The notes under the pieces were generated by a model. The model had not been told where the DNA came from, did not search any database, and saw only the letters and a program-made list of their open reading frames with translations. The position numbers were made by a program, and so were the translations under genes. A stretch of 33,120 nucleotides of DNA, taken from positions 1-33,120 of the IMG/VR virus record IMGVR_UViG_3300043786_000297. One strand, written 5' to 3'. Source of the stretch: a virus. Positions 1-33,120 of this stretch are shown here, in pieces. The stretch's first letter is position 1. Each line of letters opens with the position of its first letter.

Positions 1-50
1 CCCGTAGGCGTCATCTCTGTCGCTAACTGATTAATTTTTTTTGATTCCAT
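1..50 (-). CDS. Tail fibre gene, 5' end only (variant allele)
   Basis: The ATG at 48-50 overlaps the TAA stop (50-52) of the upstream neck gene as TAATG, and about 16 codons remain before the window ends. The first 11 residues (MESKKINQLAT) equal those of the full-length fibre gene starting at 33039, but the following residues differ (EMTPTG here, NVSPQT there). It is the same locus reached from the other contig end, carrying a different sequence. It is truncated by the window edge, so nothing more can be said about this version. Confidence 0.8.
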   Translation of the reverse strand, partial: MESKKINQLATEMTPT

Positions 51-131
51 TAATAAGTATAATTTGTAGGCACCTGGCACCTGTTGTTTATAAATGGTAA
101 ATTCAAAGTAATATCACACTTGACACCTGCT
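18..131. repeat. Terminal overlap, left copy (matches 33007-33120)
   Basis: Bases 18-131 align without gaps to 33007-33120 with four mismatches (27, 30, 42 and 74). The last 57 bases are identical. Each mismatch falls in a codon third position and is synonymous in either the fibre or the neck gene. This is best explained by a circular or circularly permuted genome whose contig ends overlap but come from different strains. Confidence 0.85.
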
Positions 132-499
132 AAAAAATCAGGATCAGATTCCGTAAAATATGTAATTGGAATGTTATCCCCGCAAGTCCAAGTAACTATC
201 CCATAATCTAAAGGATATCTTAATTGAGCAATAAAATCTTGTGCTACCAATGTTTGATCTGATAAAACTTCCGTTTCGTTTGTTTCCTCTGATAGCATCC
301 TATCCATAAAGTAAAAACTAAAATTATAATCTATTTCCTTAGCACCTATTGTAGCACCCGTTAACGTAAAAAACATAGCAGGATAAGTAACCTCGCCATT
401 GCTTAAACGTTCCCAGACATCGCCAAAATAAACAAAATTAATCTGTTCGTGGTCGTTTCCTATCTTTGTCAGTTCTTTGACTATTTGGTTTAATGTCAT
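50..499 (-). CDS. Neck or tail-completion-like structural protein (149 aa)
   Basis: The protein is soluble and mixed alpha/beta, with no signal peptide or membrane helix. It begins with a helix (MTLNQIVKEL) and ends in a beta-rich segment (GVKCDITLNLPF). It lies after the portal and connector genes and directly before the fibre, ending in a TAATG overlap with the fibre start. That position fits a head-tail joining or tail terminator protein, but the role is inferred from context and size only. The 3' 80 bases occur again at the right edge of the window with a single synonymous change. Confidence 0.5.
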   Translation of the reverse strand: MTLNQIVKELTKIGNDHEQINFVYFGDVWERLSNGEVTYPAMFFTLTGATIGAKEIDYNFSFYFMDRMLSEETNETEVLSDQTLVAQDFIAQLRYPLDYGIVTWTCGDNIPITYFTESDPDFLAGVKCDITLNLPFINNRCQVPTNYTY

Positions 500-566
500 T
501 CTTTTTTGCTTTTTCCAAATAAACTTTTAGCTTATTTTGGTTTTTTATAGTTACTTGTTTACTCAT
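438..566 (-). CDS. Small basic protein overlapping the neck gene (42 aa)
   Basis: The ATG at 564-566 directly follows the stop of the connector gene (568-570), filling an otherwise empty 68-base gap. The product (MSKQVTIKNQ...) is a lysine-rich helix with a basic, probably disordered C-terminus. Its last 62 bases overlap the start of the neck gene in another frame. The first ~22 codons are therefore the independent part and the C-terminus could be a by-product of the overlap. The function is unknown. Confidence 0.45.
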   Translation of the reverse strand: MSKQVTIKNQNKLKVYLEKAKKNDIKPNSQRTDKDRKRPRTD

Positions 567-567
567 A

Positions 568-1161
568 TTAGCAGCATCCAATATTACCCTGATACCTTTC
601 CTCGAATGTTTTTTTATTTTTCCCGTCGTAATCATCATTGCAGCAAGCATCCCCTAAATACATTGAAACCGTGTAACCTTCATTATCAGGCTTGATTGAA
701 TCAATGCCGCTACCAAAGTTTAAGTAGTTAGGATATAAAGCATTGTTTTGTTTTAGGTATTTAATTAACCTTTGCTTGTAAAATTCTGCTCTTGCCTTGT
801 ATCTATTTGCCACGTCAATCATATCTTGCATTGAAGGACTTTCTTGATTCTCGCCCGTCTTTCTTAAAAGCCCTTTGTTGTAAAACTGAAAAGACAATCC
901 CTGTGGTAATTCAGACATTACAAAATAGATTAATGTATCTACTATGTAATCATCTAATAAAGTCGTTTGTAAATTTGTGTATGTATTGGTATCAACCGCC
1001 GTTTGTAATTCATTGTAAAGTGCTGATCCTAAAGCAGGCAAAATATACATATCTTGCGCCGTCTTGATTTCAGGCAATACTAATTTTTCATCTACGTTTG
1101 CGTGTAATCCTGTTCTGTCCTTAATTGACTGAACTGATATAAATAAAGTATTCTTGCTCAT
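568..1161 (-). CDS. Head-tail connector-like protein (197 aa)
   Basis: The start is the ATG at 1159-1161, which overlaps the portal stop (1161-1163) as TAATG. An in-frame ATG at 1206 would lie inside the portal gene and is less likely. The protein is mainly helical with an N-terminal SVQSIKDRTGL segment and a C-terminus containing paired cysteines (ACCNDDYD and a final CC). A helical protein of about 200 aa immediately after the portal is where gp6-type head completion proteins are normally encoded. No diagnostic motif is visible, so the name rests on position and shape. Confidence 0.5.
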   Translation of the reverse strand: MSKNTLFISVQSIKDRTGLHANVDEKLVLPEIKTAQDMYILPALGSALYNELQTAVDTNTYTNLQTTLLDDYIVDTLIYFVMSELPQGLSFQFYNKGLLRKTGENQESPSMQDMIDVANRYKARAEFYKQRLIKYLKQNNALYPNYLNFGSGIDSIKPDNEGYTVSMYLGDACCNDDYDGKNKKTFEERYQGNIGCC

Positions 1162-2957
1162 TATTTTTTTCTTGTTACTATGTTTGAAACCCATTGATGT
1201 CTGCACTCTGGGCTATGTTTGCCACTTGATTCTGTGTACCAACCGCCTTTACGATCCCAAACCGAATAACCTAACCTTGCACTCATTAACTCTATTTCGC
1301 TACGGCTATATAGCTTTTTTGCTTCTAATAAAGCCACACAAAAAGGACGGCTTGTATCTATGTCTGATTTACTAAATCCAGATCTCCATTCATAGGAATA
1401 TCTAATAAGCAACTCCGTTGTCTGTGGCTTAATTTTTTCTAAAATATTCTTTAAAGGCTCTGTCAAAGTATGCTCCGTGATCACATTTTCATCAATCCCT
1501 GTTCCTATTGTGTATTGTTTTGGTTGGATATGCCCGTCATCAATCAATTTTTTAATCACTTGATTGATAGTATCCACGTTTTGATCTAAGGTAGTCGCCA
1601 AAACTTCTGGCGTTATTCTTTTATCCTTAGCCATTAAATCAAGCACATTCGCTTGTAATTGGTTTACCTCTGCAAATAACTGATATTCAGAATCGTCATT
1701 AAAGCGCGTTCTTGACTTCCAAATATTGTATGAAGCCTTATCCTCGCCAAACTCAAAAAATACGCTAAAATCGTCCTTAAATTGCGCAGATTGGACAACT
1801 GTAACCGCTTCCTCTGGTGCTTGATATTTACTCATATCAATACCCGCCTTTTCAAGCAACCATTCTTTTGGTGCAATCTCTTTTAAAAGATTTTCTGTAA
1901 ACTCAAATCCAATCGGCTCTGTTGGAATAATATGTAATTCTGCGTCCTCAATGCCTCTGTACTTAAATAGCATATTAAATACACCTTCAAGGTGCATTTG
2001 CTTACTATTAACGTAAGTATTTTTAAAAATCTCATATCCGTCGCGCATTTCCGAACGGCTACCTAATTTACCCGCTTCTGCAATACCAAAGATTGAAGGC
2101 GTTGTAATTTGATGTCCGCAGAAAATATTAGTTTGAATTAGCATATCCACACGCCCAAAATCTTCTTTTGTAATATCAGAAGTTCCCAGATCATCAACGA
2201 TAGGCTTTCTTGCACTATCATTTACGAAAGCTAAAATAAACTTCTTGCCATCTGATCCGCTAAATCTATTTGTAAAGCGTTTTTCAATATTGCGCTTTTC
2301 ATCATCCGAAGGATCGCCATTAGGTAAAGTAATAAGTTTACTTGCAGAAAACCCTGTCTGTGCATTAGCTAAAACGTGCTTAGATATTTCAATATCTGAT
2401 TCTATGTAATTAAGCGCACCAAAGTAACCTGGCAAAGAATAATAACCCATATTTGGGCGGTATTCTTTAATATAAAGGATTTGCTTGCCGTATGGATTAG
2501 CAGGATTAAAAGCAGGGTAAACCTCCGCCTTTTCTGCCCTATCCCCCCAATCTTCCTTATACCAAAATTGTGTATTGTCTTTATTGGTACGAATCTTAGT
2601 GTAATCACAATGCCATATTTCAACCAATTGACCTGTAACTGACCAAATAATCTCTAAATAATAACCTCCAAATAATTCAGCATCTAAAGACACCTTTCTT
2701 GTTAAATCTTCAAGGCTTTCCATTCTATTAACTTTCTTAATAAAAGGATCTGCCTCTGGACTTCCTGACCAACCATTTGCAGTAATATAATGCACCTTGC
2801 TTTTTATGATAGCATTATGCTTGGCTGACTTATTAAAAAGTTCAACTAAGTAGTTTGGGTAATCGTTGCGATCGCCATACTGAATATATCCTTCGCCTTT
2901 CTTTTCTTTAAATTCAGGCTGCTTGGCTTCCGCAAATGTTAGTACTCTTAAATCCAT
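1161..2957 (-). CDS. Portal protein with C-terminal extension
   Basis: At 598 aa this is the expected length for a phage portal. It forms the dodecameric ring at one capsid vertex through which DNA is packaged. The region around residues 40-380 has the portal pattern: NDYPNYLVELFNKSAKHNAI, a middle wing region, then GHQITTPSIFGI and SRSEMRDGYEIFKN in the stem/crown part. Residues ~430-500 look like a winged-helix segment. The final ~60 residues carry SRPFC, RKGGWY and PECRHQW, resembling the end of MuF-like minor head proteins, so the gene may fuse portal and minor-head functions. It overlaps the 124-aa gene before it by one base (TAATG). Confidence 0.85.
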   Translation of the reverse strand: MDLRVLTFAEAKQPEFKEKKGEGYIQYGDRNDYPNYLVELFNKSAKHNAIIKSKVHYITANGWSGSPEADPFIKKVNRMESLEDLTRKVSLDAELFGGYYLEIIWSVTGQLVEIWHCDYTKIRTNKDNTQFWYKEDWGDRAEKAEVYPAFNPANPYGKQILYIKEYRPNMGYYSLPGYFGALNYIESDIEISKHVLANAQTGFSASKLITLPNGDPSDDEKRNIEKRFTNRFSGSDGKKFILAFVNDSARKPIVDDLGTSDITKEDFGRVDMLIQTNIFCGHQITTPSIFGIAEAGKLGSRSEMRDGYEIFKNTYVNSKQMHLEGVFNMLFKYRGIEDAELHIIPTEPIGFEFTENLLKEIAPKEWLLEKAGIDMSKYQAPEEAVTVVQSAQFKDDFSVFFEFGEDKASYNIWKSRTRFNDDSEYQLFAEVNQLQANVLDLMAKDKRITPEVLATTLDQNVDTINQVIKKLIDDGHIQPKQYTIGTGIDENVITEHTLTEPLKNILEKIKPQTTELLIRYSYEWRSGFSKSDIDTSRPFCVALLEAKKLYSRSEIELMSARLGYSVWDRKGGWYTESSGKHSPECRHQWVSNIVTRKK

Positions 2958-3331
2958 TATTGTCTTATTTTATAAGTGTCCGTTGTAGTATATTCCGTGA
3001 AATTGAAAGGCGTTCCGACTAACTCCATAATCCCTGATTCTAATAAATTTAAACCCGCAGGATTAAGGTTAGATGTACTTGTCTGTTCGTATATATCGTA
3101 ATCATATTGACCATTTAAAGCAGTACTAAAATTAGTATTTGTAACGATACTAAATTCATTGTATCTGTCCTTATATTGGCTTATGTCTGTGTTATTTAAC
3201 CTAACAAATTTAACCTCTGTATTTGCGCTTCTATTAGTAAATACAAACAAATAGTTTGGATTAGTCAATAATTGCTTTTCAGTTAAAGTCAAAATTATGT
3301 TTTGGGTTGATCCTTTTGTTAACCTAATCAT
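2957..3331 (-). CDS. Putative virion structural protein (124 aa)
   Basis: A beta-rich soluble protein starting MIRLTKGSTQNIILTLTEK and containing PNYLFVFTNRS and NGQYDYDIYEQ. It is the first gene after the terminator at 3377-3408 and its stop overlaps the portal start, so it is translationally coupled to the portal. Proteins of this look are frequent in Bacteroidota phage structural modules, but their role is unknown to me. The leader (3332-3376) contains a small TAGCT/AGCTA hairpin at 3343-3356 and no clear promoter. Confidence 0.6.
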   Translation of the reverse strand: MIRLTKGSTQNIILTLTEKQLLTNPNYLFVFTNRSANTEVKFVRLNNTDISQYKDRYNEFSIVTNTNFSTALNGQYDYDIYEQTSTSNLNPAGLNLLESGIMELVGTPFNFTEYTTTDTYKIRQ

Positions 3332-3376
3332 ATAAACTATATAGCTAAAAAGCTAATTTATTGCATATACTACAAT

Positions 3377-3408
3377 AAAAAACCGCCGAACCAATGAAGG
3401 AACGGCGG
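3377..3408 (-). terminator. Intrinsic terminator after the tail-tube-like gene
   Basis: CCGCCG (3383-3388) pairs with CGGCGG (3403-3408) around a 14-nt loop that can add a CC/GG pair. On the minus strand it is followed by six T residues (3377-3382). It lies 26 bases after the stop of the 3434 gene and is strikingly GC-rich for this genome. Confidence 0.8.
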
Positions 3409-3433
3409 CAAACCTATAAACCTATGAAAAAAC

Positions 3434-3955
3434 TTATGCGCCTGCGGTTGTCAATACAGAATAAACTGCTTGTGCAACGCTTGGTGCTAATGCGGCTTCT
3501 GCACCTGTAAAGGTTAAAGTGAATCCACTTCTGTCGCCTTGTGCAGTACCCGTTCCCGCAGTACCGGCAGTTAAATCTAATCCTCTTGTTTTACCAAGAT
3601 ACCAATAATTGCCATTTGAATCTTTTACTACTGCAATCAAAGTATTTTGAGCAAGCAATAAAATTTCGTTTCTTGTAGCGGTTTGTAATTTATTTAATAC
3701 AACCATTAATTCCTGTGCATAAAATACAGTTCCATTCTGTACGTTAGTAGTGATTGTTTGATTCATCATTGATGTATCTTTCACTTGCTCGTATTTGTAG
3801 AATCTTTTACCTGTTGCCTTTGTTAATGTTGTAATCACTCCGCTTGCTTCGGTTGTTGCAGTTACGTTGGCTGCTTCTATGAAATACACTTCCGTAACAC
3901 CGCCTAAGCTATCTCGGCAGTCTAAAGTATATCCAGATGTTAATGCGCACGGCAT
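3434..3955 (-). CDS. Tail-tube-like (major tail) structural protein (173 aa)
   Basis: A cysteine-containing N-terminus (MPCALTSGYTLDCRDSLGG) is followed by alternating beta strands, a threonine-rich stretch and a C-terminal segment (GDRSGFTLTFTGAEAALAP). Small, Thr/Gly/Ala-rich beta proteins of this size that repeat in the virion are typical of major tail proteins. The gene stands alone between two terminators (after the capsid gene and after itself), which suits a product needed in high copy. The identity is inferred. A capsid decoration protein is the main alternative, because the gene follows the capsid gene. Confidence 0.55.
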   Translation of the reverse strand: MPCALTSGYTLDCRDSLGGVTEVYFIEAANVTATTEASGVITTLTKATGKRFYKYEQVKDTSMMNQTITTNVQNGTVFYAQELMVVLNKLQTATRNEILLLAQNTLIAVVKDSNGNYWYLGKTRGLDLTAGTAGTGTAQGDRSGFTLTFTGAEAALAPSVAQAVYSVLTTAGA

Positions 3956-3966
3956 AATATATAATT

Positions 3967-4005
3967 TAAAATTTTATTAAAAATGGGGGGCGATTAAACC
4001 CCCCA
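3967..4005 (-). terminator. Intrinsic terminator after the major capsid gene
   Basis: A seven-base stem (3984-3990 with 3999-4005, including GGGGGG/CCCCCC) closes an 8-nt loop. On the minus strand it is followed by ATTTTTAATAAAATTTT. It begins a few bases after the capsid stop codon and would reduce read-through into the tail-tube-like gene. Confidence 0.75.
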
Positions 4006-4009
4006 ATAA

Positions 4010-4963
4010 TTATGCTAAGATAAACTTAACGATCTCATCTGGGAACGCTACGTTTACACCCATTTTGAATTCACTTACAAAACGAACTTGATCAGCTTCT
4101 TTTGCGTAGAAAATTTCAAACTTCTCTTCCTCGTTCAATAAATCTGTTCCTAAGAACAAGTTAGATAAACGCATTGCGTAAACCTTGTTAGTTCCGTTCA
4201 AACCTGCAAGTGCTACAACTTTGATCATAGTACCTGGTAATACGAACTCGCTATCAGCTTTTACATCAATTGAATAATGGAACTGATTTGCGTTCTTTAA
4301 TGCAATAGTGTAAGTTCTAAATACGTCTTGACCACAGAAGATAGTCATATCATCAGCAGCTACAACTTGTGCAGGGATTGCTTGATATACACCATCAAAA
4401 ATGCTGATTACATTACCAGCAGTAATTGTGCTTAAAGGCGCACCACTGATAAAAGTAGAAGCGTTAGCAGCTACAACACCTGTTGCAGCACCAATTAACT
4501 TAACAAGCCCGTCAAATTTAGATAGATTCGCATTGCCAGACGTTGTATCGCCCTGCCATAACGCAGTTTCTAATTGAGCAGCGATTGTTTTTGCTTTCTT
4601 CTCAGCAAATTCTTGCTCAAAAGGAATTGAATCATACATTGATCCTGTTGGTAATGCTTTTTGTAAGTACTTAGATTCCAAGTCTTTAGGACATAAAGAT
4701 TCGTTTACTTTAATTTTTCCAACTGTTACTGTTCTTTGAGTAAAAGTTGTAGAACCAGATGCGTTAAATCCGCAAGATCCACCTGCTTGGAAGATCGCGT
4801 CTGTGTCCATAATGTTAATCGTTTCAGCAGACTTTACGCCCACCATAACGTTACCTGCGCTTTTAATTAAAGCTGCGGTTTTTGCTCCTAATACAGAATC
4901 AGTTACCAATAAGGCTTCGTTTTGCTCTGTATAAGCTGCTAATGCGTCTACGTTAAATGCCAT
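4010..4963 (-). CDS. Major capsid protein
   Basis: A soluble 317-aa protein with no membrane segments. A helical N-terminus (MAFNVDALAAYTEQNEALL) leads to a long beta/alpha body with GSMYDSIPFEQEFAEKKAKT, a spine-like helix (KTIAAQLETALWQGD) and a C-terminal domain ending SEFKMGVNVAFPDEIVKFI. This matches the size and layout of HK97-fold capsid subunits. The upstream scaffold and prohead protease genes and the terminator directly after it are the expected context. No long N-terminal delta domain is present, consistent with the separate scaffold gene. Confidence 0.85.
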   Translation of the reverse strand: MAFNVDALAAYTEQNEALLVTDSVLGAKTAALIKSAGNVMVGVKSAETINIMDTDAIFQAGGSCGFNASGSTTFTQRTVTVGKIKVNESLCPKDLESKYLQKALPTGSMYDSIPFEQEFAEKKAKTIAAQLETALWQGDTTSGNANLSKFDGLVKLIGAATGVVAANASTFISGAPLSTITAGNVISIFDGVYQAIPAQVVAADDMTIFCGQDVFRTYTIALKNANQFHYSIDVKADSEFVLPGTMIKVVALAGLNGTNKVYAMRLSNLFLGTDLLNEEEKFEIFYAKEADQVRFVSEFKMGVNVAFPDEIVKFILA

Positions 4964-4975
4964 TGTTATTAATTT

Positions 4976-5584
4976 TTATTTGTTTAAAATTGCGTTTCTA
5001 TATTTTTCTAATCTTTGTTCTTTAATGCCCTTTGTATTTACAAACTCATTAAAGCTATTTGGTTTTTTAATAGGATCTTCGCTTGGCGTATTTGAAAGTG
5101 CTTCGATTAATTCAGCTACTTGTGCAAATCCTTGCTTAACCTTATCTTCTAAATCCAAAACTTTTGCGTCAGATACATTCTTAGCTTCAATTAATTCAGC
5201 AATCTTTGCTTCAAATTGTTCAGCCATTTCTTGAATCTTTTTATCTTTGTAATCTGCTCCCGCTTCAACTTCTGTATCAACTTCTGGACTTGCTTCTACT
5301 ACTTTAGTTTCAATAGCGGTAATTTTTCCGTTCTCGTCTAAAGTAATTTCTGATCCGTCCATTAATTCGTGATCCCCTGCCGGTGCAGGTTGCCCTTCAA
5401 TAGTTACTAAACCGCCAATCTCTAAAGCTGAAATCTCAACCTTAGTTCCGTCCATTAATGAATATTCTGCCATTTCAACCTTAGTTTCCTCAACTTTAGG
5501 GTTATTAGCTTCATCTTCTTTAACAGGCGCAGCATTGTCCTCAAACAAAGCCTTAATTTTTAAAATTGCTTCCTGTGCGTTCAT
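4976..5584 (-). CDS. Capsid scaffolding protein
   Basis: A 202-aa acidic protein between the protease and the capsid gene. The N-terminal half contains two related segments built on LMDGTKVEI and LMDGSEITL, separated by GLVTIEGQPAPAGDHE. The C-terminal half (about 105-160) is a charged coiled coil (KKIQEMAEQFEAKIAEL and onwards). The last ~35 residues are basic and probably contact the capsid. Composition, coiled coil and position match scaffolds that the protease digests during prohead maturation. The 38-base gap upstream holds a hairpin at the end of the protease gene. Confidence 0.75.
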   Translation of the reverse strand: MNAQEAILKIKALFEDNAAPVKEDEANNPKVEETKVEMAEYSLMDGTKVEISALEIGGLVTIEGQPAPAGDHELMDGSEITLDENGKITAIETKVVEASPEVDTEVEAGADYKDKKIQEMAEQFEAKIAELIEAKNVSDAKVLDLEDKVKQGFAQVAELIEALSNTPSEDPIKKPNSFNEFVNTKGIKEQRLEKYRNAILNK

Positions 5585-5610
5585 ACTTTTTTTATTATAT
5601 AGTTAAAAAA

Positions 5611-5639
5611 TAAATAGTTTATCACTTAACTTGTGATAA
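5611..5639 (-). terminator. Hairpin over the prohead protease stop, weak terminator
   Basis: TTATCAC (5619-5625) pairs with GTGATAA (5633-5639) around a 7-nt loop. It covers the protease stop codon (5622-5624) and is followed on the minus strand by an A/T-rich tract with six T residues. The stem is AT-rich and the T tract is not immediate, so it may attenuate rather than terminate. Confidence 0.4.
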
Positions 5640-6215
5640 TATTTTTTTGATTGCATCAACCATAGACGCAACCTTGTTTACTTCCTTCGGTTTGTAGGTA
5701 AATAACCCCTCTACGCTGAATCCCATTATATCCCCGTTTTTAACCTTAGCCCAAGCCTCGTCATTATCCACGATCATAGATCCAAACCAACTGCCAACAG
5801 GCGCATCTTCAAAGCCTTTCATTGGCATAATACCACGCGAAGGATCTGATATAAAACTTTCAAATAAAGTAACGCCCTCAAATTGTTGGTTAGAATCGTG
5901 CATTAAATTTACATTGCTCTGGAATCCTTTTTTAAAAAACTTCTGAACAATTTTAAGAATAGTGTCTGAACTAAAAGCCACATAGTAATCGCCATAAGTA
6001 GCATCAGACCTAAAAATAGGCGTATCAGCCAACATAATAGCACCCGAAATAATACGGCGATCTTCATTTGTTACCTCAAATTTTTGGGTTTTATTAAAAG
6101 CGTTCCAATTCTTTTGTATTGCAGGACGATCAACTAATGCAATGAAATCAACTTGTGAATCATCTTCTATGCTATCCGTAATGTCCAACATATAAATAGG
6201 TATCTCTGTATTCAT
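5622..6215 (-). CDS. Prohead maturation protease, XkdF/S78-like
   Basis: A 197-aa serine protease that processes scaffold and capsid during head maturation. The probable catalytic histidine is His106 in NLMHDS, and the serine is Ser167 in GFSVEG. Between them lies APVGSWFGSMIVDNDEAWAK, typical of the XkdF family. The N-terminal DFIALVDRPAIQKNWNAF segment is also characteristic. It is encoded directly before scaffold and capsid. The start ATG at 6213-6215 is preceded by an A/T leader without Shine-Dalgarno; the tape measure gene ends 35 bases upstream. Confidence 0.85.
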   Translation of the reverse strand: MNTEIPIYMLDITDSIEDDSQVDFIALVDRPAIQKNWNAFNKTQKFEVTNEDRRIISGAIMLADTPIFRSDATYGDYYVAFSSDTILKIVQKFFKKGFQSNVNLMHDSNQQFEGVTLFESFISDPSRGIMPMKGFEDAPVGSWFGSMIVDNDEAWAKVKNGDIMGFSVEGLFTYKPKEVNKVASMVDAIKKILSQVK

Positions 6216-6249
6216 ATCTTTAAATAGTTTATTTGTGAATATTTATCGT

Positions 6250-8055
6250 TTAACTAAATCTTGCCCTTTGTCTTATGGCTGCCATTCTTTGCTGATTGCC
6301 TGTTATATCTGTTTCAATAACGTATGCCCTGACTGCTTGATTGCCTAAATCATTTATTGATTCTCTGCTTATATTTGTAGTTTGAGCAACAGGTAATTGT
6401 GGAATCATTGGGGCTTGGGTTGATATTGCAGGAACTGAACTTGTACCTGTGCCACCATTTCCCGCTTGATTAATTTGTTGAATACCATTTACAGAAGCAG
6501 CAATAACAGAAGCAATAGACAACGCGCCACCAATTCTTGAAGGAATAAAAGCAGGGTTAGGAATGCCTGGCGGTAAAATAGCGGGAACGGTGTTCATCTG
6601 TGTAATAATCTTAGCAATAGCTGCACCTTTCTCAATTAATAAACCCGCGATTGCAACTGACTTATTTTTCCCTGCTATCTGTCCTAATAAATTACCTGCT
6701 TGTTCTGCAAATCCAAGATATTGTAATTCCATTGCAGTTTTTGCTTCTTGTTCAGCTTTTTTACTTGCAGTAATATCCTTATCAATATCCTGCTCTTGCT
6801 TTGCATATTTAGCAATAATCTCTAATCTTTCCTTTTCTGAAAGTTCTAAATTTGATAATTCTATTGCTTTTTGTTCTGCAATATATGCTTCCTTATTAGC
6901 TAATCTTTGTTGATCTGCTTCAAAATCAATATCTAATAAATCATTTTCGTAATCTATATCTGTTATTAGGTTTTGTATATTTTGAAAATCTAATGCTCTT
7001 TTTTTCTCTGCCCTTTCCTCATCAAGCTGCATTAATCGTTGTTGAAGTTCCGTATCAAATTGTTCGTAAGCCCTTGCGTCTGCTTGTGCTTTTTCAATCC
7101 TTGCTTTTTCCTCTGCTTCCCTTTTATCTGATGCATCTTTTCTTTCTTTAGCAGCCGTTTCATTTGCTTTCTTAATTCTATTGGCTTCGTTTAAATCTAA
7201 TACTTGCAATTCCGTATTTAAGTCAGCCCTTTTTTGTCTTTCCTCGTCCGTTGTATCTTTTACTAATTTTATTTGATTTAAAATCCTTTCTCTTTTTTTC
7301 TTATATATTTCATCCTCTTTACCACCTTGTGCTTCTAAAATCTTAATTTGATTGTCTATTGCCTTATTTGAAGTTTCTATACTTAATTTGAAATTATCTT
7401 GCACCCTTGCTGCTTCGCTTGTAATACCAACAAAATCAGTTATTCCCTGAACGATATTTTTAATTTGATTGCCAAATTCAATTAAGCCTGGAAATAAATT
7501 AGTTAAAGTTTCTTTTACTTTCTCAAAGTTTGCTATTAGTAAACCCAATCCAACGGCTAATGCACCAACCCCTGTTGCTATTATTGCGCCTCTTAATGTA
7601 CTAAATGCGCTTACAACTTGCGTTCTAATAACGGCACCTAATTGCTTAAAGCTATCAATGCTTTCCCCTACTGCTTGTAAGCCTTGAGATAAAGCCATAG
7701 CACTTTGAACTTTTACTAAAGTTTTTTGCAAGTCCTCACTTTCAGATCCAAATAATGCCATAGCACCTTGAACGGCTGCAAATCCACCCGCAACGCCAGA
7801 TAAGGATGCCGTTAATGCTTTAAACTTTGCATCTGGATTAAAGGCTTCTGTTAATGCTCTTGCATCCCCAATCCTATCCCTTAATTCTGCTGCCCTTTTT
7901 GCTGCCTCAATAGCTTCCTTAGATGTCGCACCGAACTTGTCTGATAATTTAACTACATCCGCCTGCGCTTCTCTTAATTGTGATTTAAGTGATCCGATGG
8001 ATTTACCTGCCTGATCCGTATTGACATTTATGTTTAAATCTAAATTCTGTGCCAT
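6250..8055 (-). CDS. Tail tape measure protein
   Basis: A 601-aa protein with the tape measure layout. The N-terminal coiled region contains SIGSLKSQLREAQADVVKL. A hydrophobic glycine/alanine segment follows at about residues 155-180 (IIATGVGALAVGLGLLIANF), then a long charged coiled coil (about 230-445) rich in E, K, A and Q, and a small-residue-rich hydrophobic C-terminal region. Tape measures span the tail lumen and set its length. At about 1.5 angstrom per residue this predicts a tail near 90 nm. The start overlaps the stop of the minor tail gene (TAATG). Its position after the minor tail genes and before the capsid genes is unusual. Confidence 0.85.
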   Translation of the reverse strand: MAQNLDLNINVNTDQAGKSIGSLKSQLREAQADVVKLSDKFGATSKEAIEAAKRAAELRDRIGDARALTEAFNPDAKFKALTASLSGVAGGFAAVQGAMALFGSESEDLQKTLVKVQSAMALSQGLQAVGESIDSFKQLGAVIRTQVVSAFSTLRGAIIATGVGALAVGLGLLIANFEKVKETLTNLFPGLIEFGNQIKNIVQGITDFVGITSEAARVQDNFKLSIETSNKAIDNQIKILEAQGGKEDEIYKKKRERILNQIKLVKDTTDEERQKRADLNTELQVLDLNEANRIKKANETAAKERKDASDKREAEEKARIEKAQADARAYEQFDTELQQRLMQLDEERAEKKRALDFQNIQNLITDIDYENDLLDIDFEADQQRLANKEAYIAEQKAIELSNLELSEKERLEIIAKYAKQEQDIDKDITASKKAEQEAKTAMELQYLGFAEQAGNLLGQIAGKNKSVAIAGLLIEKGAAIAKIITQMNTVPAILPPGIPNPAFIPSRIGGALSIASVIAASVNGIQQINQAGNGGTGTSSVPAISTQAPMIPQLPVAQTTNISRESINDLGNQAVRAYVIETDITGNQQRMAAIRQRARFS

Positions 8056-17901: not shown

Positions 17902-18731
17902 TTGTCTGCTTTTGGATGTCCTTTAGGCAATAAATCATAATCCGTAGTGTACTTTGAATTTTGCGGTCTGCCATTCTTTAACAAATATAGGAATGCGTTA
18001 ACCCTTGCAAATGCCCATTGAGAAGCTGATCTAACCAATGGCGAACGGCTTGTATTATATGCGCCTAATCCTCTTTGAAATACTGACTTCAATGCTCCTA
18101 AATTTGCTTTGCCGTATTTGGTATTGCTTTCCTTATCGTTAAATTCCTTTGCCTTATCTTGTAATGTCTTTTCTTGTTCTGCCGTTACCTCTGCGCCTCT
18201 TTTACCGCTTGCATCCCCTTTAGCACTTCCTTCGCCTTTTGGATTAGGGTTTTTAGTATCTGACTTTGGTGCTTTTGGACTTGATCTTATACCACCCCTT
18301 TCGCCAACTTCTGCAAATTTTTGTTTATCTATTTCTGCAAGTTTTCTCTGCGCCCAACTAACCCCTTCGTCGCCTCCCCAAGCCAACCACATAAGCGCAC
18401 CGCAATCGTTCTTAGGATCGCCCTTGCTATTTTCCCTATGCCTTTCAAAACTTGACATTCTTGCGATTGTTTCCCTTGATATGTTTTCGCCCTTAGCTAT
18501 TTGATTAGCCCTTGTCCAACCTACTAAAGTTCCGCAACCTCTATCGTTTTCTTTTTTGATATTTAAAGCCCTGCGTGCGTTTGCTTTCGCCGCCTCTGGA
18601 TAATCATTATAACTATCCACCATTGAAACCCTGATTGCAGCCCAAACGCTTTGAGCCTTTTCCTCTGTATCAAAGATGCAAGCACCTGATCCAATTCTAT
18701 ATTTCCCGTTTGAGCATTTAATTACAGGCAT
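17898..18731 (-). CDS. Modular protein of unknown function, possible virion-associated (277 aa)
   Basis: Three parts are visible. The N-terminal segment has KCSNGKYRIGSGACIFDT (two Cys). The middle part (about 40-130) has ALNIKKENDRGCGTLVGW, ISRETIARMSSFERHRE and DCGALMWLAWGGDEG. A Lys/Ser/Gly/Pro-rich linker follows (about 145-190). The C-terminal segment has ASQWAFARVNAFLYLLKNGR and DYDLLPKGHP. Similar middle and C-terminal segments occur attached to phage head-morphogenesis proteins and in other viral proteins, but I cannot assign an activity. It overlaps the GT-B gene by 14 bases. Confidence 0.6.
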   Translation of the reverse strand: MPVIKCSNGKYRIGSGACIFDTEEKAQSVWAAIRVSMVDSYNDYPEAAKANARRALNIKKENDRGCGTLVGWTRANQIAKGENISRETIARMSSFERHRENSKGDPKNDCGALMWLAWGGDEGVSWAQRKLAEIDKQKFAEVGERGGIRSSPKAPKSDTKNPNPKGEGSAKGDASGKRGAEVTAEQEKTLQDKAKEFNDKESNTKYGKANLGALKSVFQRGLGAYNTSRSPLVRSASQWAFARVNAFLYLLKNGRPQNSKYTTDYDLLPKGHPKADK

Positions 18732-19725
18732 TTCCTATTAGTTTATTATAAATAGCAAACCTCTGTTTATTTACTTCGTATAAGTTAAAGTTCTTATTGC
18801 AATACTCATATAGATCATTTCCGTACTGCTTTCTTGCTGCCTGATCGTGGGTTAATAGCTTGATCCAATAATACCAATCCTTTTGACTATTAACGTGGCA
18901 GGCGGGATAAAATCCCTTATAAGGATGTACGTTGCTTACGATAGCAGGGTTTTTCTTTGATGCCGTTTCTAATACTTTTAAATTAGACTTCATTGAATTA
19001 AACTTAGAATCAACTAAAGGGATAAGGCTTATGTCTGAATCACAATAAGCCGCCATATATTCCGTTACAGGATTGTAGTTATATATCGTAGGCTTTAGCT
19101 TTAAGCCGTTTGTAAAAGCGCAGATCATATTATCCCAAATATGTTTTTCGCCTTCATTGTATCCTGCTATGATTGTTCTTACAGGGAAGTTTATACGTTT
19201 CATTGGGTTGCGTAGTATTTCCAAATCCTTGCCGTGTGTTCCTGATCCTGACCAAAACAATCTGACAAGATCCGAAGGCTTTTTTTCTAATACAAATTGT
19301 TCCTCGCCGTATGGAATGGCATTAGGCAATATTTGAACGTTTGTATTGTGCTTGTATATTTCCTCTGCTAACCTTTCGTGGGTGCAAGTACAAAGGTCTG
19401 CTATCAATAACCAACTTATAATCTGCTCTGGTATCTTTTTTAAAATATAATCCTGATAAAGTATATGTGAAGGTTCAAGATGCCAATAATCGTCATTATC
19501 AACTACCAATTTAAAGCCATACTTTTTGCGCCATTCAATCATCTGCTCTGGTTTAATGTTAGCAAGCATCCTATTCATAACCACAATATCAAACTTCCCC
19601 TCAAATGTTTCCTCGCTTAACGTATCCGTAATCAAGCAATAATCTTTTTTCATATTAACCAACGGCATCATAATTCTATGATAGCCCACCCCGCTTTGCT
19701 TACTTGTTATTGCTAAAATTCGCAT
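18718..19725 (-). CDS. GT-B fold glycosyltransferase (GT4-like)
   Basis: A 335-aa cytoplasmic enzyme without membrane segments. The N-terminal Rossmann half starts MRILAITSKQSGVGYHRIMM and continues with DIVVMNRML and VVDNDDYW. The C-terminal half has VRLFWSGSGTHGKDLEIL, then CDSDISLIPL and SNLKVLETASKKNPAIVSNV, the latter carrying the nucleotide-sugar-binding Glu in an LKVLE helix as in GT4 enzymes. It is the last gene of a four-gene carbohydrate cassette and overlaps the GT2 gene by 13 bases. The sugar and acceptor are unknown. Confidence 0.8.
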   Translation of the reverse strand: MRILAITSKQSGVGYHRIMMPLVNMKKDYCLITDTLSEETFEGKFDIVVMNRMLANIKPEQMIEWRKKYGFKLVVDNDDYWHLEPSHILYQDYILKKIPEQIISWLLIADLCTCTHERLAEEIYKHNTNVQILPNAIPYGEEQFVLEKKPSDLVRLFWSGSGTHGKDLEILRNPMKRINFPVRTIIAGYNEGEKHIWDNMICAFTNGLKLKPTIYNYNPVTEYMAAYCDSDISLIPLVDSKFNSMKSNLKVLETASKKNPAIVSNVHPYKGFYPACHVNSQKDWYYWIKLLTHDQAARKQYGNDLYEYCNKNFNLYEVNKQRFAIYNKLIGNACN

Positions 19726-20387
19726 CTAATTTTTTTTTCTGTATGGTATATAGGTTGATACTTTTCCCAAACCGCCTGCGCCTTTTGTAGGCTTGCATCC
19801 TTCATAGCCCTATACTCTGTGCCATTCCCCACATCGTGTCCAATATGTTCACTTCTTAGATCTGGAATATAGTAATTAGTAAAACCCGCAATGACAGCCC
19901 TTTCTGCATAATCCCTGTCCTGCATTCCGTATGGATCGTATTCAGTATTGTACCCGCCGATTGTGTCAATCAATTCCCTTGTTATAAAATTATTTCCAAA
20001 TGGCACGTGAGTTTTATGAATACCGTCCTGTAATGGCGGCAAATCCTCTACGCAATGTATTCCAATAATACCTGTTTTTGGTACTTTTTGCGCAAACATA
20101 ACCCAATTTTTAAGCCAATTAGTAGGTAGCAAAATATCATTTGCTAATAAGCATACGCCATCATATCCCCTTGTCATTTTAAGCCCTGCATTAACTCCCG
20201 CGCCTATTCCTCTTTTATATCCTACATTGCAATTTGTCCAATTAAATAAATCATAAGGAACTTGATTGCTACCATTATCTACTAAAAAACAATCGGCATC
20301 ATATCCAGAATTAAAAAAATTCTGATCAATTACGCGCTTTGTTAAATCGTTTCTATTTAAGGTTAATAAAATTACAGCTACATTCAT
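19713..20387 (-). CDS. GT2-family glycosyltransferase
   Basis: A 224-aa GT-A fold enzyme. The nucleotide-binding N-terminus is MNVAVILLTLNRNDLTKRVI with CFLVDNGS. The metal site is represented by LLANDILLP (AND in place of DxD), the acceptor region by HVPFGNNFITRELIDTIGGY, and the catalytic acid by GMQDRDYAER. A conserved His near the end (EHIGHDVG) fits metal coordination. It has no membrane anchor, so it is soluble. It overlaps both neighbours by a few bases (ATGA type). Confidence 0.85.
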   Translation of the reverse strand: MNVAVILLTLNRNDLTKRVIDQNFFNSGYDADCFLVDNGSNQVPYDLFNWTNCNVGYKRGIGAGVNAGLKMTRGYDGVCLLANDILLPTNWLKNWVMFAQKVPKTGIIGIHCVEDLPPLQDGIHKTHVPFGNNFITRELIDTIGGYNTEYDPYGMQDRDYAERAVIAGFTNYYIPDLRSEHIGHDVGNGTEYRAMKDASLQKAQAVWEKYQPIYHTEKKIRCEF

Positions 20388-20974
20388 TTTAATATATATG
20401 TTTTGCTTTCTGGTTTATCAATAATTAAACTATATCCGTTTACTTGCATTATTTCATTTATCTTATTCCATCCTATTGTTAATTTGTGTGTACCAACATA
20501 TCCATCCCAATCATTCCCTACGTCTGTTAATGGGGATTCAAAATGAATACATTTAACTCCTTTGCAATATTTAGCTAAATCTTCAAAATGGTCATTGCTT
20601 AGATGTTCAATAAAATGAGTAGCTATAATAAGATCTGCTTCTATTGTTCTTTTATCTTTAAACCAATCAAATTTTGTAGGCAAAATATAATTAACTTCTT
20701 TGCATTTAGTTGAACGAATTGCAGCTTCGCAAATTTCTATACCATACCAGGCTGATATATTAAAGTCTTGCATTGCTTGTTTGGCTAAATCGCCTTTCCA
20801 GATGCCGAACTCCAATACTATTGGTTTAGTGCATAGTAATAACGCTTCTTTTACATTATCATAGTTGTAATGATTCTGTTCTGGATAACGTGCTTCTAAT
20901 TCATTATGATAAGCTATTTGCTCATCAGTTGTCATTGTGTCGTAGCGTTCACGCCACTTGTCAAATTCGTTCAT
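20384..20974 (-). CDS. Class I SAM-dependent methyltransferase
   Basis: A 196-aa Rossmann methyltransferase: motif I is IVLEFGIWKGDLAK (about 52-65), motif II is WYGIEICEAA and motif IV is ADLIIATHFIEHLS. The ending (YSLIIDKPESKTYILK) is the usual strand hairpin. No DNA-specific motif such as xPPY is present, so the substrate is more likely a sugar or small molecule. Its place between an acyltransferase and two glycosyltransferases suggests it methylates a glycan or nucleotide-sugar. Confidence 0.8.
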   Translation of the reverse strand: MNEFDKWRERYDTMTTDEQIAYHNELEARYPEQNHYNYDNVKEALLLCTKPIVLEFGIWKGDLAKQAMQDFNISAWYGIEICEAAIRSTKCKEVNYILPTKFDWFKDKRTIEADLIIATHFIEHLSNDHFEDLAKYCKGVKCIHFESPLTDVGNDWDGYVGTHKLTIGWNKINEIMQVNGYSLIIDKPESKTYILK

Positions 20975-21453
20975 TTTTTTATATTTGGTGAAAGATATTT
21001 TGCAGGCACGCCCGCGTATTTACTAAATGATTCTGATTCCCCTTTAAAAAAAGCACTTGCTCCAATCATACAACCTTCGTTAATTACACTAAACTGATGC
21101 AATACTGCATTTAATCCAATGTTTGAATATTCTTTTATAACCGAATGTCCGCCTATTTTAGCACCGCAGCTTATTGTAACATTATCCCAAATATGGCAAT
21201 CGTGTCCGATATGCGCGTGCTTCATTATAAAACAATTATTTCCAATCGTTGTAATATCTTCCGTTCCTGCATCAATAGTAACTAAGCCTGTAATCATATT
21301 TCCATTTCCTATGATTACTTTCCCTATTGGTTTATCCCAATATTTTTTATGCTCTGCGGGATCGCCTATTATACAATAAGCCCCAATATAATTGTTATCG
21401 CCTATGATAACGTTATCGCCTATGATTGCCGTTGGGTGTATAAAATTTGCCAT
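20971..21453 (-). CDS. LpxA-like hexapeptide-repeat acyltransferase
   Basis: A 160-aa left-handed beta-helix protein. Hexapeptide repeats run from FIHPTAIIGDNVIIGDN onwards. AHIGHDCHIWDN aligns with the LpxA active-site region, so the catalytic His is conserved, and NAVLHQF matches the LpxA AVHQF segment that binds the acyl donor. It is shorter than LpxA (~260 aa) and lacks most of the C-terminal helical domain. The start is ATG at 21451-21453; the TTG 15 bases upstream would overlap the previous gene. A role in O- or N-acylating a sugar is likely. Confidence 0.85.
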   Translation of the reverse strand: MANFIHPTAIIGDNVIIGDNNYIGAYCIIGDPAEHKKYWDKPIGKVIIGNGNMITGLVTIDAGTEDITTIGNNCFIMKHAHIGHDCHIWDNVTISCGAKIGGHSVIKEYSNIGLNAVLHQFSVINEGCMIGASAFFKGESESFSKYAGVPAKYLSPNIKK

Positions 21454-21454
21454 A

Positions 21455-21676
21455 TTATTGTTTTTCAAACCATTGATATAATCGCATTACCATTTCGAAC
21501 TTACAAGCACCGCACCATACTGATACGATAAAATTAGGATCTAAATATGTCCTATAAATATGCTCGTACATTTTTAAGTCATCTAATTCAAGATTTCTAA
21601 TATACCCATTCTTTGCGCACTCATAGTTATTTATATTAGCCGCAAGCCATTCCCTATGCTCTTGTTTTATTTCCAT
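21455..21676 (-). CDS. Small cytoplasmic protein with a CxxC motif (73 aa)
   Basis: A helical protein with an N-terminal HREWLAANINNYECAKNG, a middle YEHIYRTYLDPNF and a C-terminal WCGACKFEMVMRLYQWFEK carrying CGAC. The paired cysteines could bind zinc or act in redox. It overlaps the membrane-protein gene by 10 bases, and the two may work together since both carry C-x-x-C-like pairs. The function is unknown. Confidence 0.65.
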   Translation of the reverse strand: MEIKQEHREWLAANINNYECAKNGYIRNLELDDLKMYEHIYRTYLDPNFIVSVWCGACKFEMVMRLYQWFEKQ

Positions 21677-25038: not shown

Positions 25039-25584
25039 TTACTTGTTTTGGTTAGCTAAAATAATTTTATAAGCCTTGTCGTATTGCTCATTTGTAGTGT
25101 AAGCACTTATCTTGATAGCCTGTTTACTTTTAAGGCTTTCATCCCAGATAGTGTTTTCTAATAGAGCAATTAGCTTCATACGTTTTTCCTCTCCAACTTC
25201 GTCCTTATGCTCATTCGTAGAATCCGCATCCTTTGTGTCATCTATTGCAAATAAGCCATTAAGGGCGTATTTTCTGGCGTATGAACTCGCTGATCCTGTA
25301 ATCTGTGCTGCATCCATTCCTTTCTTTAGTTCCTCCTCGCGCGCCCAACCTTTTGAACTGATAGTATTATCTGTATCATCTAAAAGTGTTGCGGTTGCTT
25401 GAACATAAATCCTGTCCCCTACTTGTACTACCTCATCTGTAATTACTAATGCAGTTCCGTACTTAAATAAAATAGGTTTTACTGCTTCAATAATGTCCTC
25501 TGCATTTCGGTACTTATATTTACCAAATGCATTAAATTGTCCTTTTGGTGCTTTTAATTCAGCTTGAATTTTTACTAAGTTCAT
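25039..25584 (-). CDS. erf: ERF-family single-strand annealing recombinase
   Basis: A 181-aa recombination mediator that coats single-stranded DNA and anneals complementary strands. The ERF signature is clear: PKGQFNAFGKYKYRNAEDII (14-33), a middle beta region, then TGSASSYARKYALNGLFAID (about 101-120) followed by DTKDADS. The C-terminus (about 140-181) is helical, as in other ERF proteins. It is encoded near an exonuclease, a VRR-NUC nuclease and an SSB-like tip protein, so together they may support recombination-dependent replication. Confidence 0.9.
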   Translation of the reverse strand: MNLVKIQAELKAPKGQFNAFGKYKYRNAEDIIEAVKPILFKYGTALVITDEVVQVGDRIYVQATATLLDDTDNTISSKGWAREEELKKGMDAAQITGSASSYARKYALNGLFAIDDTKDADSTNEHKDEVGEEKRMKLIALLENTIWDESLKSKQAIKISAYTTNEQYDKAYKIILANQNK

Positions 25585-29572: not shown

Positions 29573-29980
29573 TTATTTTAAAATTAATAATATAAGTAAA
29601 ATTAATACTTTAATCAATACCGAAGTATATTCAGGTTTTATTTTTATAAATTCAGCTACCTTTCTAATAAATCTATCTGTATCTGCAGTTTTACCAACAT
29701 AAAATGCAGGTCTTTTTAAGACGATAATATTGCAAAGAATGTCAAAGCCAAACCAAAACAAAGTCGCAAAAAATACCATTGAAAAGAATCCATAAAGCGA
29801 CCAAACCAAAACATAAACTGATAAATGGTTTACACCCTTCCAAATATGCCATTTTTTATTGTGTTTGTAGGCATTATACGAATCGGTTGCATAAAGGTCA
29901 CGTTCTAAAAATTGGTGATTTTGATATAAAACCCAACTAATTAAGTGAATTAAAAATACTATGGTTAAAAATATTGTCAT
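29573..29980 (-). CDS. Membrane protein (135 aa)
   Basis: Three hydrophobic regions: MTIFLTIVFLIHLISWVLY at the N-terminus, VYVLVWSLYGFFSMVFFATL in the middle and a C-terminal VLIKVLILLILLIL. Histidines and lysines lie between them (QNHQFLERD, HNKKWHIWKG). It starts in the fibre stop (TAATG). A role in lysis or host-membrane modification is suggested by position; the family is unknown. Confidence 0.65.
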   Translation of the reverse strand: MTIFLTIVFLIHLISWVLYQNHQFLERDLYATDSYNAYKHNKKWHIWKGVNHLSVYVLVWSLYGFFSMVFFATLFWFGFDILCNIIVLKRPAFYVGKTADTDRFIRKVAEFIKIKPEYTSVLIKVLILLILLILK

Positions 29981-32900
29981 TATTTATTTATTAATGTTCT
30001 TAATTCTTCTATTTGTGCTTGTTGTTCTTCTATTTTTGTCATACACTCTTGTAATACTTTAATAGTAGCGTGATGTAAGTCAGAAGTATAAATTGCTTTT
30101 CTTTCAACTTGTTCATCTTCTAAAGTCCACATATCTGTATCAACAAACTCTGGTGCTACTGATTCTACTTGTTGAGCAATTACACCTATATTAAAATCAT
30201 CGTGCGTTTGGTCTTTATATTTAAATTTAACAATTTCAATAGCCTTAAACTTATCCCAATATGATTCTAAAGGTATAATATCCTTTTTAGTTCTTTCGTC
30301 AGAAAGGTTTACATTGTTTGCTTGATAGTTTTCAATACCTCCATTTGAACGAACTTCAAATCTTAGTGCAGTTGAATCATCTGCATATATAAATGAATTC
30401 GTACCGTTATTTGGAGATGCATTAGGATATTGCAATCTAATCCCGTATGGCGAAGCGGATGTGTTTGAAATATATACAGTCCATTCATCGGATGCATTAC
30501 TTCTAAGTTCGTGATAACCAATGCTTGCGTTATTATAAATTCCAGTATTACTTGCTTTTAAGAACCCCCCCGATGTGATTCTCATTCGTTCGGTATTGTT
30601 AGTACGAATTACCAAAGGATGGTTGCTTAATGAACCTACAATAGATACACTATTTGTATTATCTGCTGTTAATTGTGTTGTTATTGTTCCATTACTTACA
30701 TATAATTGTGGGTCACCTCCAGCCGATTGAAAATTTGCTAATAAAGGTGCGCCACTTGATGCAGTACTTCTAACATCTAATTTATACCCAGCATCTGTAC
30801 TCGTTCCGATTCCAACGTTTTGTCCAGAAGTAATTGTCATTGCTGGAGTAGCTGGCATTACTGCATTAAATTGTCTTGTGTTAAAGTGTAAGTTTAAACC
30901 CCAATCTGCAACCGCAGTTGTATTTATTAAAGCCGAAATTAAATCAGCACTTGCGTGTTTAAATGCAAATCCAGCATTTCTTACATCTCCAGTACCATCA
31001 GTTGCAGCAGTAGAACTACTTAAAATTGATGCATTTCCACCATTAACTTGAAATTTAGTATAAGGCGAAGTCGTTCCGATTCCAACTTTATTATTTGTAC
31101 TATCAACAAATAAAGTATCTGTATCAATAGTCAAATTGCCACTAAACGTACCTGTTGTTGCACTTAAACCACCTACTAATTGTAAAGCACCCGCACTTGT
31201 TAAGCTCATTTTAGTACCACCATTACTCCATACTACTCCACCTGAGCCATAAAGAAAACCTAAAGGTGTACCGCCACCTGAATATGTAGTATAATAGTTT
31301 GCAGCTACACCACCTTCTACATTAGAAACACCAATACCATTTTCCGAAATTATATCACCTGCAACTTTTAAACCTGCCGTTGGTGGCGATGTAGCACCCC
31401 CAATAGCAACATTGCTACTAAAATTTGCACTTGTACCTGTTAAAGCACCTGTGAATCTACCTGTTCCTACAAAATCATTATTAAATGTACTACCACCAAA
31501 AGTAGCTACACCTGCACCTCCATTTGCTTCAATGTGTACTACACCAGTTGCATTGTAATTAGCTAAAGTAACTCTATCAGATGTCCAATATAAAGCACCA
31601 CTACCTGCGGTCATTCCTGACAATCTATATGCAGATGCTTGCATAGTACTTGAGAAAACTGCACTTGTTCCGTTTAATGTACCTGTTAAAGTTCCACCTG
31701 CTAAAGGTAAATATGTACTTGCTGCTGAACTTGTTGTTAAGTATGTGCTTGAATCAACCGAACCATCTGCTTTAAGAAATTGACTTGAAGTTCCTCCTTT
31801 TTTTACGAAAGAATAAGCATAAACATTTCTAAAATTGAAACCACCCGAAATGCCTATATCATAAACATTATCTCCATTGGGTTGAACATTATTTACTGCT
31901 AAGTCTCTTAAAAGTATATCAAATGAACCCATATTTAAATTAGCCGTTGCACCTGTATAAGGTACATAAGTTGAAGCTGCAGAACTTGTTGTTAAGTATG
32001 TACTATTATCATAGCTTATAGTTGTTCCGCTAATCTTTACAAATCCTGTTCCACTTAAAGCAGGTTGTTTTCCGTTAAACGTACTCCAATCCGTTGAACT
32101 TAACTTACCTGTATTTGTAGCCGAAGCCACAGGTATATTAAAAGTATGAGTAGCCGTTGAACTTGAGATGTTAAAGTCAGTTCCGCTTGTTCCTGTCGCT
32201 AAAAATTGTACTTGTCTTGTTAAGTTATTTAACGAAGTCAAGCCCTTAGAAAAGGTTGTAATTACTTGACATAAATGATTGTTCTCTGTATGTAAAGTAA
32301 CTACTTTTGTATCTACGTTTACATAGATTCTAATTGCTATTCTATCTGTTATTGCTAAAGTAGTTTGAGTAACAGGGATAGCAAAATAATAAGGACTTAA
32401 TGTAGTTCCGTTTGTTAAATACTCTGGAACGCTTTGGCTACTTCCTATTAATGTAAAAGTTGAGCCATCATATTTATAAACCTCTGCATATACATAAGGA
32501 TTGTGATTATTAGAATTCACACTAAAATATAACTCACAATTAAAGTTTCCCGCAGGTACTTCTAATAAAGAAGGATCATTTGCGTCTGTTAAGAAACTTG
32601 CCACATATCCATTAGCTGAAATAGTAATATCAGTTCCCGCACCTGCAATTGGATCTTTACTTAATTCTCTATAATCAACACCTCCAATAGTACCTTGACT
32701 TACACTTGAATTCAAATAATAAGATACCGAACTTCCCCCGCCTGTTGATGTAGGAAAATCTGCCAATGCACCATCCCCTCTAACATATTGAGTAGCTGCT
32801 CCTGCAAATCCTATATTAATCGTTCCCGCACTTGTTATTGGACTGCCTGTTATTGTTAAAGCGTTGCCTGTTTCTGTAATACCTACGCTTGTAACCGTTC

Positions 32901-33039
32901 CAACTGTAGAAAATAAATTAGCTATCTGTAATAACGTAATCTTTTTACTTACTCCTGTAATCGGATCGCCTATAATTGTTAAATCAGAAGTTTGAGGCGA
33001 AACATTTGTCGCTAATTGGTTAATTTTTTTAGATTCCAT
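29980..33039 (-). CDS. Tail fibre / receptor-binding protein with S74 chaperone
   Basis: A 1019-aa fibre. The start is the ATG at 33037-33039, overlapping the neck gene stop; an ATG at 33069 lies inside that gene. The N-terminus (MESKKINQLATNVSP) is the likely attachment segment. The shaft is Ser/Thr/Gly-rich with repeats of TYLTTSSAASTY and VGIGT. The last ~108 residues are an S74 intramolecular chaperone: LSDERTKKDI (cleavage before Ser ~913, with the catalytic Ser-Lys pair), GVIAQQVE, and a C-terminal helix. The chaperone assembles the trimer, then cuts itself off. Confidence 0.85.
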   Translation of the reverse strand: MESKKINQLATNVSPQTSDLTIIGDPITGVSKKITLLQIANLFSTVGTVTSVGITETGNALTITGSPITSAGTINIGFAGAATQYVRGDGALADFPTSTGGGSSVSYYLNSSVSQGTIGGVDYRELSKDPIAGAGTDITISANGYVASFLTDANDPSLLEVPAGNFNCELYFSVNSNNHNPYVYAEVYKYDGSTFTLIGSSQSVPEYLTNGTTLSPYYFAIPVTQTTLAITDRIAIRIYVNVDTKVVTLHTENNHLCQVITTFSKGLTSLNNLTRQVQFLATGTSGTDFNISSSTATHTFNIPVASATNTGKLSSTDWSTFNGKQPALSGTGFVKISGTTISYDNSTYLTTSSAASTYVPYTGATANLNMGSFDILLRDLAVNNVQPNGDNVYDIGISGGFNFRNVYAYSFVKKGGTSSQFLKADGSVDSSTYLTTSSAASTYLPLAGGTLTGTLNGTSAVFSSTMQASAYRLSGMTAGSGALYWTSDRVTLANYNATGVVHIEANGGAGVATFGGSTFNNDFVGTGRFTGALTGTSANFSSNVAIGGATSPPTAGLKVAGDIISENGIGVSNVEGGVAANYYTTYSGGGTPLGFLYGSGGVVWSNGGTKMSLTSAGALQLVGGLSATTGTFSGNLTIDTDTLFVDSTNNKVGIGTTSPYTKFQVNGGNASILSSSTAATDGTGDVRNAGFAFKHASADLISALINTTAVADWGLNLHFNTRQFNAVMPATPAMTITSGQNVGIGTSTDAGYKLDVRSTASSGAPLLANFQSAGGDPQLYVSNGTITTQLTADNTNSVSIVGSLSNHPLVIRTNNTERMRITSGGFLKASNTGIYNNASIGYHELRSNASDEWTVYISNTSASPYGIRLQYPNASPNNGTNSFIYADDSTALRFEVRSNGGIENYQANNVNLSDERTKKDIIPLESYWDKFKAIEIVKFKYKDQTHDDFNIGVIAQQVESVAPEFVDTDMWTLEDEQVERKAIYTSDLHHATIKVLQECMTKIEEQQAQIEELRTLINK
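31727..32001. repeat. Direct repeats inside the fibre gene
   Basis: A 20-bp unit at 31727-31746 recurs identically at 31982-32001 and encodes the repeated TYLTTSSAASTY shaft segment. Such repeats allow in-frame recombination between fibre modules. Confidence 0.7.
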
Positions 33040-33120
33040 TAATAAGTATAATTTGTAGGCACTTGGCACCTGTTGTTTATAAATGGTAAATTCAAAGTAA
33101 TATCACACTTGACACCTGCT
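33007..33120. repeat. Terminal overlap, right copy (matches 18-131)
   Basis: The right end of the window repeats bases 18-131 with four synonymous differences (33016, 33019, 33031, 33063); the final 57 bases are identical. See the left copy for interpretation. Confidence 0.85.
33039..33120 (-). CDS. Neck protein gene, 3' end only (second copy of the terminal overlap)
   Basis: The last ~26 codons of the 149-aa neck gene (GVKCDITLNLPF onward), ending at the TAA 33039-33041 that overlaps the fibre ATG. It encodes exactly the same residues as 50-131, with one silent difference (CAA instead of CAG for Gln). It is cut by the window edge and is the same gene seen through the contig overlap, not an extra gene. 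Confidence 0.8.
   Translation of the reverse strand, partial: AGVKCDITLNLPFINNRCQVPTNYTY

Follow-up and report, generated by a model that had tools for sequence, protein, structure and literature searches.

Probable meeting of two tail-fibre haplotypes at the ends of a circular-map phage contig

Metaviromic and metagenomic islands at host-recognition genes combine a conserved backbone with an unalignable fibre segment, while the N-terminus of the fibre is retained and assemblies break at the variants (PMC3909814; PMC7468147). Assemblers halt where island variants compete, and many contigs of one such study were broken there (PMC7468147). The contig analysed here (33,120 nt, referred to in full as the window) agrees with these islands in all of these respects, but it belongs to a different, uncultivated phage group, and its break is seen as an inexact overlap of 114 nt between the ends of a genome that is otherwise closed. 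Its relatives conserve the backbone but lack the island or cannot be aligned there, and variants appear to be swapped by recombination between near-identical backbones (L016/L025 and three other pairs). As the fibre-island phenomenon is already well described, the addition made here is a member from an uncultivated group.

Two further described systems bear on the locus. S74-chaperone tail fibres (PF13884; PHROG 28766, tail fiber protein) resemble the fibre of the window, which has both C-terminal S74 and PHROG matches, and in the window's group the fibre body differs between relatives. The second system, circular-map metagenome contigs with terminal overlaps, is represented among the relatives by G003, G008 and G009, whose overlaps are exact and of assembler size (123, 123 and 127 nt), whereas the overlap of the window is inexact, very probably since two haplotypes meet there.

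Relatives were collected by scanning IMG/VR with the conserved 149-aa gene located just before the fibre gene (Table 1), which returned 416 matching stretches, 80 loci of which were kept. The term neck is used for this gene as a positional label only, because its product matches no Pfam or PHROG family. Neither known-phage DNA, searched with window 1–8000, nor a phage protein collection, searched with the neck product, contained a match; thus no cultured relative informs the locus. With its 416 stretches, the group lends itself well, as a natural series, to the study of how fibre bodies are exchanged where backbones are nearly identical. The neck gene is also present, at 97% and 80%, in two contigs (L108 and L109) that belong to a single metagenome bin of Chitinophagaceae (UBA8137), which weakly hints at a Bacteroidota host or at co-binned phages.

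Table 1. Features of the neck-fibre region in the window.
Feature	Coordinates	Strand	Remarks
Alternative-haplotype tip, redundant with the right end	1..131	-	Last 27 neck-position codons including stop, plus the first 16-17 EMTPTG-type fibre codons
Divergent 17-nt patch, fibre codons 12-17 (EMTPTG)	1..17	-	Identical in L010, L024 and L025
Conserved 149-aa gene just before the fibre, neck position	50..499	-	No Pfam or PHROG match
Hypervariable cassette: fibre body, C-terminus and next small ORF (29573-29980)	29580..32060	-	Mostly unalignable DNA compared with relatives
Tail fibre gene, 1019 aa from ATG 33039	29980..33039	-	C-terminal Peptidase_S74 chaperone domain; PHROG tail-fibre matches
Right-end copy of the neck-fibre locus, main haplotype	33007..33120	-	Exact in L003/L004, there joined to window base 132

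Terminal overlap and circular map

The two contig ends (window 18–131 and 33007–33120) match at 110 of 114 bases according to both a repeat finder and terminal BLAST (E = 3e-51 end to end), with mismatches at window 27, 30, 42 and 74 only. On the minus strand both copies encode the same neck-gene end (AGVKCDITLNLPFINNRCQVPTNYTY, followed by the stop) and the same fibre start (MESKKINQLAT), and all four mismatches, of which three fall in the fibre frame and one in the neck gene, are synonymous. The overlap coordinates and the four silent differences agree with the sequence-only reading. Between the last mismatch (window 74) and the contig end lie 57 nt, and bases 75–131 are indistinguishable from the main haplotype.

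That reading had taken the differences for real natural variants, which holds: window bases 1–73 are found exactly only in L024 and L025, while a 79-mer of the right haplotype is found exactly only in L003 and L004. The mismatches do sit at a contig end, where low coverage could produce sequencing or assembly errors. However, synonymous changes make up only 20% of the possible single substitutions in the overlap (35% of transitions), so four out of four are improbable under random error (chance approximately 0.002–0.008), and the left-tip base at positions 27, 30 and 42 is present in all 23 close relatives (L005–L027). Given these recurring variants, error was set aside as scarcely conceivable. 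The left tip is therefore the common haplotype of the group, and the right-end haplotype is the unusual one. The full 131-nt tip has no exact copy in the retrieved contigs, L024 and L025 each being one base away from it. The independence of L003/L004 and L024/L025 from the window's sample is assumed from their differing sample numbers.

When the right end of the window was joined directly to base 132 and compared with relatives, L003 (8,493 nt) and L004 (10,841 nt) were 100% identical to the joined sequence with no gap; in both, the neck gene is followed by the NVSPQTSDL fibre. The ends are likewise contiguous in the full contigs behind these loci, as G001 (11,384 nt, behind L003) is wholly identical to the joined map and G002 (behind L004) reaches 99.3% identity along a 19.2-kb stretch spanning the junction. 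The identity of L003 and L004 to the joined ends establishes a circular map of 33,120 - 131 = 32,989 bp, in which the neck-fibre junction occurs once and carries the NVSPQTSDL fibre. Two neck-fibre loci in one genome, whether by duplication or as alternative fibre cassettes, would account for the two partial copies in the contig. These copies are found only at the contig ends, however, the identical contigs have one junction, each of 16 relatives (several of genome length) has a single neck gene, and searches for a reverse transcriptase and a tyrosine recombinase were empty. A duplicated locus was accordingly set aside as very improbable. The contig is best handled as one complete circular-map genome, and its first 131 bases should be excluded when the sequence of this phage is read.

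Away from the junction, the identity of the L004 contig to the window falls to 91% at 18679–20178. In the same part of the window (18718–21468, minus strand) lies a sugar-related cluster, found here in a 33-kb phage, that combines a hexapeptide-repeat transferase and a weak match to glycosyltransferase 2 with two neighbours that had no match.

The EMTPTG allele and its carriers

The 17-nt patch at the extreme left end matches the main haplotype at 7 of 17 nucleotides (10 differ), the frame being kept and a proline shared (EMTPTG versus NVSPQT). Three contigs in the collection, L010, L024 and L025, have the EMTPTG start, and a degenerate pattern returned the same three. Those sharing the left tip encode MESKKINQLATEMTPTGSDLTIIGDP..., a different fibre body, and all three carriers continue with MESKKINQLATEMTPTGSDLTIIGDPITGVSRKITLLQLSATIGTGADLQGVTDNG..., whereas the fibre of the window continues ...NVSPQTSDLTIIGDPITGVSKKITLLQIANLFSTVGTVTSVGITETGN.... 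The expectation that the EMTPTG allele leads into a different fibre body is thus borne out by the fibre genes of relatives. The further claim that the two frames diverge completely after QLAT is not, as it was based on the 17 nt that were visible at the contig end. After the patch (19/30 identical nucleotides in its bin) the codons are near-identical again (SDLTIIGDPITGVS, 29/30 in the next bin), with 23/30 and 11/30 in the following bins; six codons differ, approximately 20 re-converge, and the bodies part at about codon 35–43. Codons 12–17 are therefore a local variable stretch ahead of a conserved one.

The upstream backbones of the three EMTPTG carriers are 91.6–92% identical to that of the window, and by this measure the known carriers are a sister lineage rather than the same phage with another fibre. 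Together with the NVSPQTSDL fibre of the window-identical contigs, this demonstrates a pair of related lineages rather than one backbone with two fibres.

Origin of the mixed ends

The contig is very probably a complete circular-map genome of about 32,989 bp that was opened at the neck-fibre region, with a left tip contributed by a sister haplotype. At least two co-assembling haplotypes would have been present at this region in the sampled population; at the left end the assembler may have come into the neck gene via the haplotype of the sister lineage, with the EMTPTG fibre, and at the right end it may have left via the phage's own haplotype, with the NVSPQTSDL fibre. With different haplotypes at its two ends the overlap would be inexact, and the circularity would go unrecognised. 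Reads of a sister phage, assembled together with those of this phage, would thus account for the tip; that the sample contained both haplotypes is judged from the contig alone. L025 and the main haplotype share an identical run of 118 nt in the neck gene, which makes such a switch feasible for a short-word assembler.

End overlaps occur in five of nine long relatives, at unrelated genes, and include, besides the exact ones mentioned above, inexact overlaps of 709 nt at 93% (G006) and 323 nt at 97.5% (G012) at other genome positions, while contig ends of relatives fall near window 3–4 kb, 18.7 kb, 24 kb and 29 kb. Being found at other loci, they identify end overlaps of this kind as something that mixed-strain assembly of circular maps produces in general. 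A linear genome whose direct terminal repeats have diverged from each other would agree with ends that are 96% alike, but the relatives end at unrelated positions with assembler-sized overlaps and the junction of the window lies inside identical contigs, and this explanation was set aside with little doubt. Among 80 relatives, ten contigs end no more than 1 kb past the neck gene on its downstream side; comparison with the upstream side is biased by the choice of locus and carries no weight here. The contig ends of relatives are not clearly clustered at the fibre. Tail-fibre diversity of this sort is real and well known, and the overlap is an ordinary by-product of its assembly.

The fibre cassette and its exchange

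In a 1029-aa reading of the fibre gene from a GTG start, residues 923–976 match Peptidase_S74 (PF13884) with 48.8 bits (cut-off 22). Comparison of the window with 23 relatives revealed 88–98% identity over the 3 kb upstream of the fibre, where bins were aligned in 19–23 relatives. The N-terminal third of the fibre could be aligned in about three quarters of the relatives, but bins of the fibre body in only 0–30%, and window 32060–29580 is mostly without alignment. Based on the tail-fibre and S74-chaperone matches and on established knowledge of fibres, the different bodies may be expected to bind different receptors.

Five pairs (L065/L066, L007/L015, L032/L036, L010/L025 and L016/L025) have 98–99% identical upstream DNA but fibres that are only 44–61% identical. 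L016 (SVSPQT) and L025 (EMTPTG), for example, show 97.9% identity across 2.5 kb of upstream sequence, while their fibres are 26% identical in an alignment anchored at the N-terminus. By zone, these two share 97–99% identity upstream, are unaligned at 300–900 nt of the fibre and reach 96–99% again at 900–1500 nt, a profile corresponding to the pattern that recombination would leave; swapping between near-identical backbones is also seen in L065/L066, L007/L015 and L032/L036. A reverse transcriptase (PF00078) had no match in the record, and a diversity-generating retroelement was therefore set aside. A fibre cassette switched by an invertase would call for a site-specific recombinase; of these the tyrosine type was looked for and not found in the genome. 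An ERF-family single-strand annealing protein (PF04404, 3e-39) is encoded at window 25039–25584 (minus strand) and is a candidate for fibre-body exchange. These results favour homologous exchange between co-infecting phages as the likeliest route, with the ERF-type protein perhaps helping.

The sequence-only reading had proposed that phages of this population share the neck gene and the fibre N-terminus and carry different fibre bodies. This is correct insofar as bodies are swapped among close relatives, but the part concerning this population is weakened by the roughly 92% identity of the EMTPTG backbones. Its stronger form, a recent within-population swap through which some of the phages with this same backbone carry the EMTPTG fibre, would explain why the contig passes unbroken from the EMTPTG tip into the window backbone, and such swaps between 98%-identical backbones do exist in the group (L016 versus L025). 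It is nevertheless considered unlikely, since every EMTPTG contig in the collection has the more distant backbone and both window-identical contigs bear the NVSPQTSDL fibre, giving a single clean junction close to what the proposal itself had named as its refutation. Still more doubtful is the idea that the sampled water held one backbone with both fibres at once through a very recent or ongoing receptor-binding swap, in which case the breakpoint would lie in the last neck codons or the first 11 fibre codons and the ERF annealing protein would probably be responsible. The mixture of two lineages at the contig ends remains the preferred explanation.

Variation was also observed elsewhere on the genome. 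Close to where the portal gene ends, a stretch (window 1782–1932) is absent from the alignments of many close relatives and forms another, smaller site of variation; around it many relatives have approximately 120 nt extra between the flanking matches. A 187-aa protein with a NUMOD3 motif, which by the look of its N-terminus may be a GIY-YIG-like homing endonuclease, is encoded between two lysis-region genes (window 28017–28580, minus strand). The site of this gene is empty in L006, L011 and L027, and only the two gene ends are left in L005.
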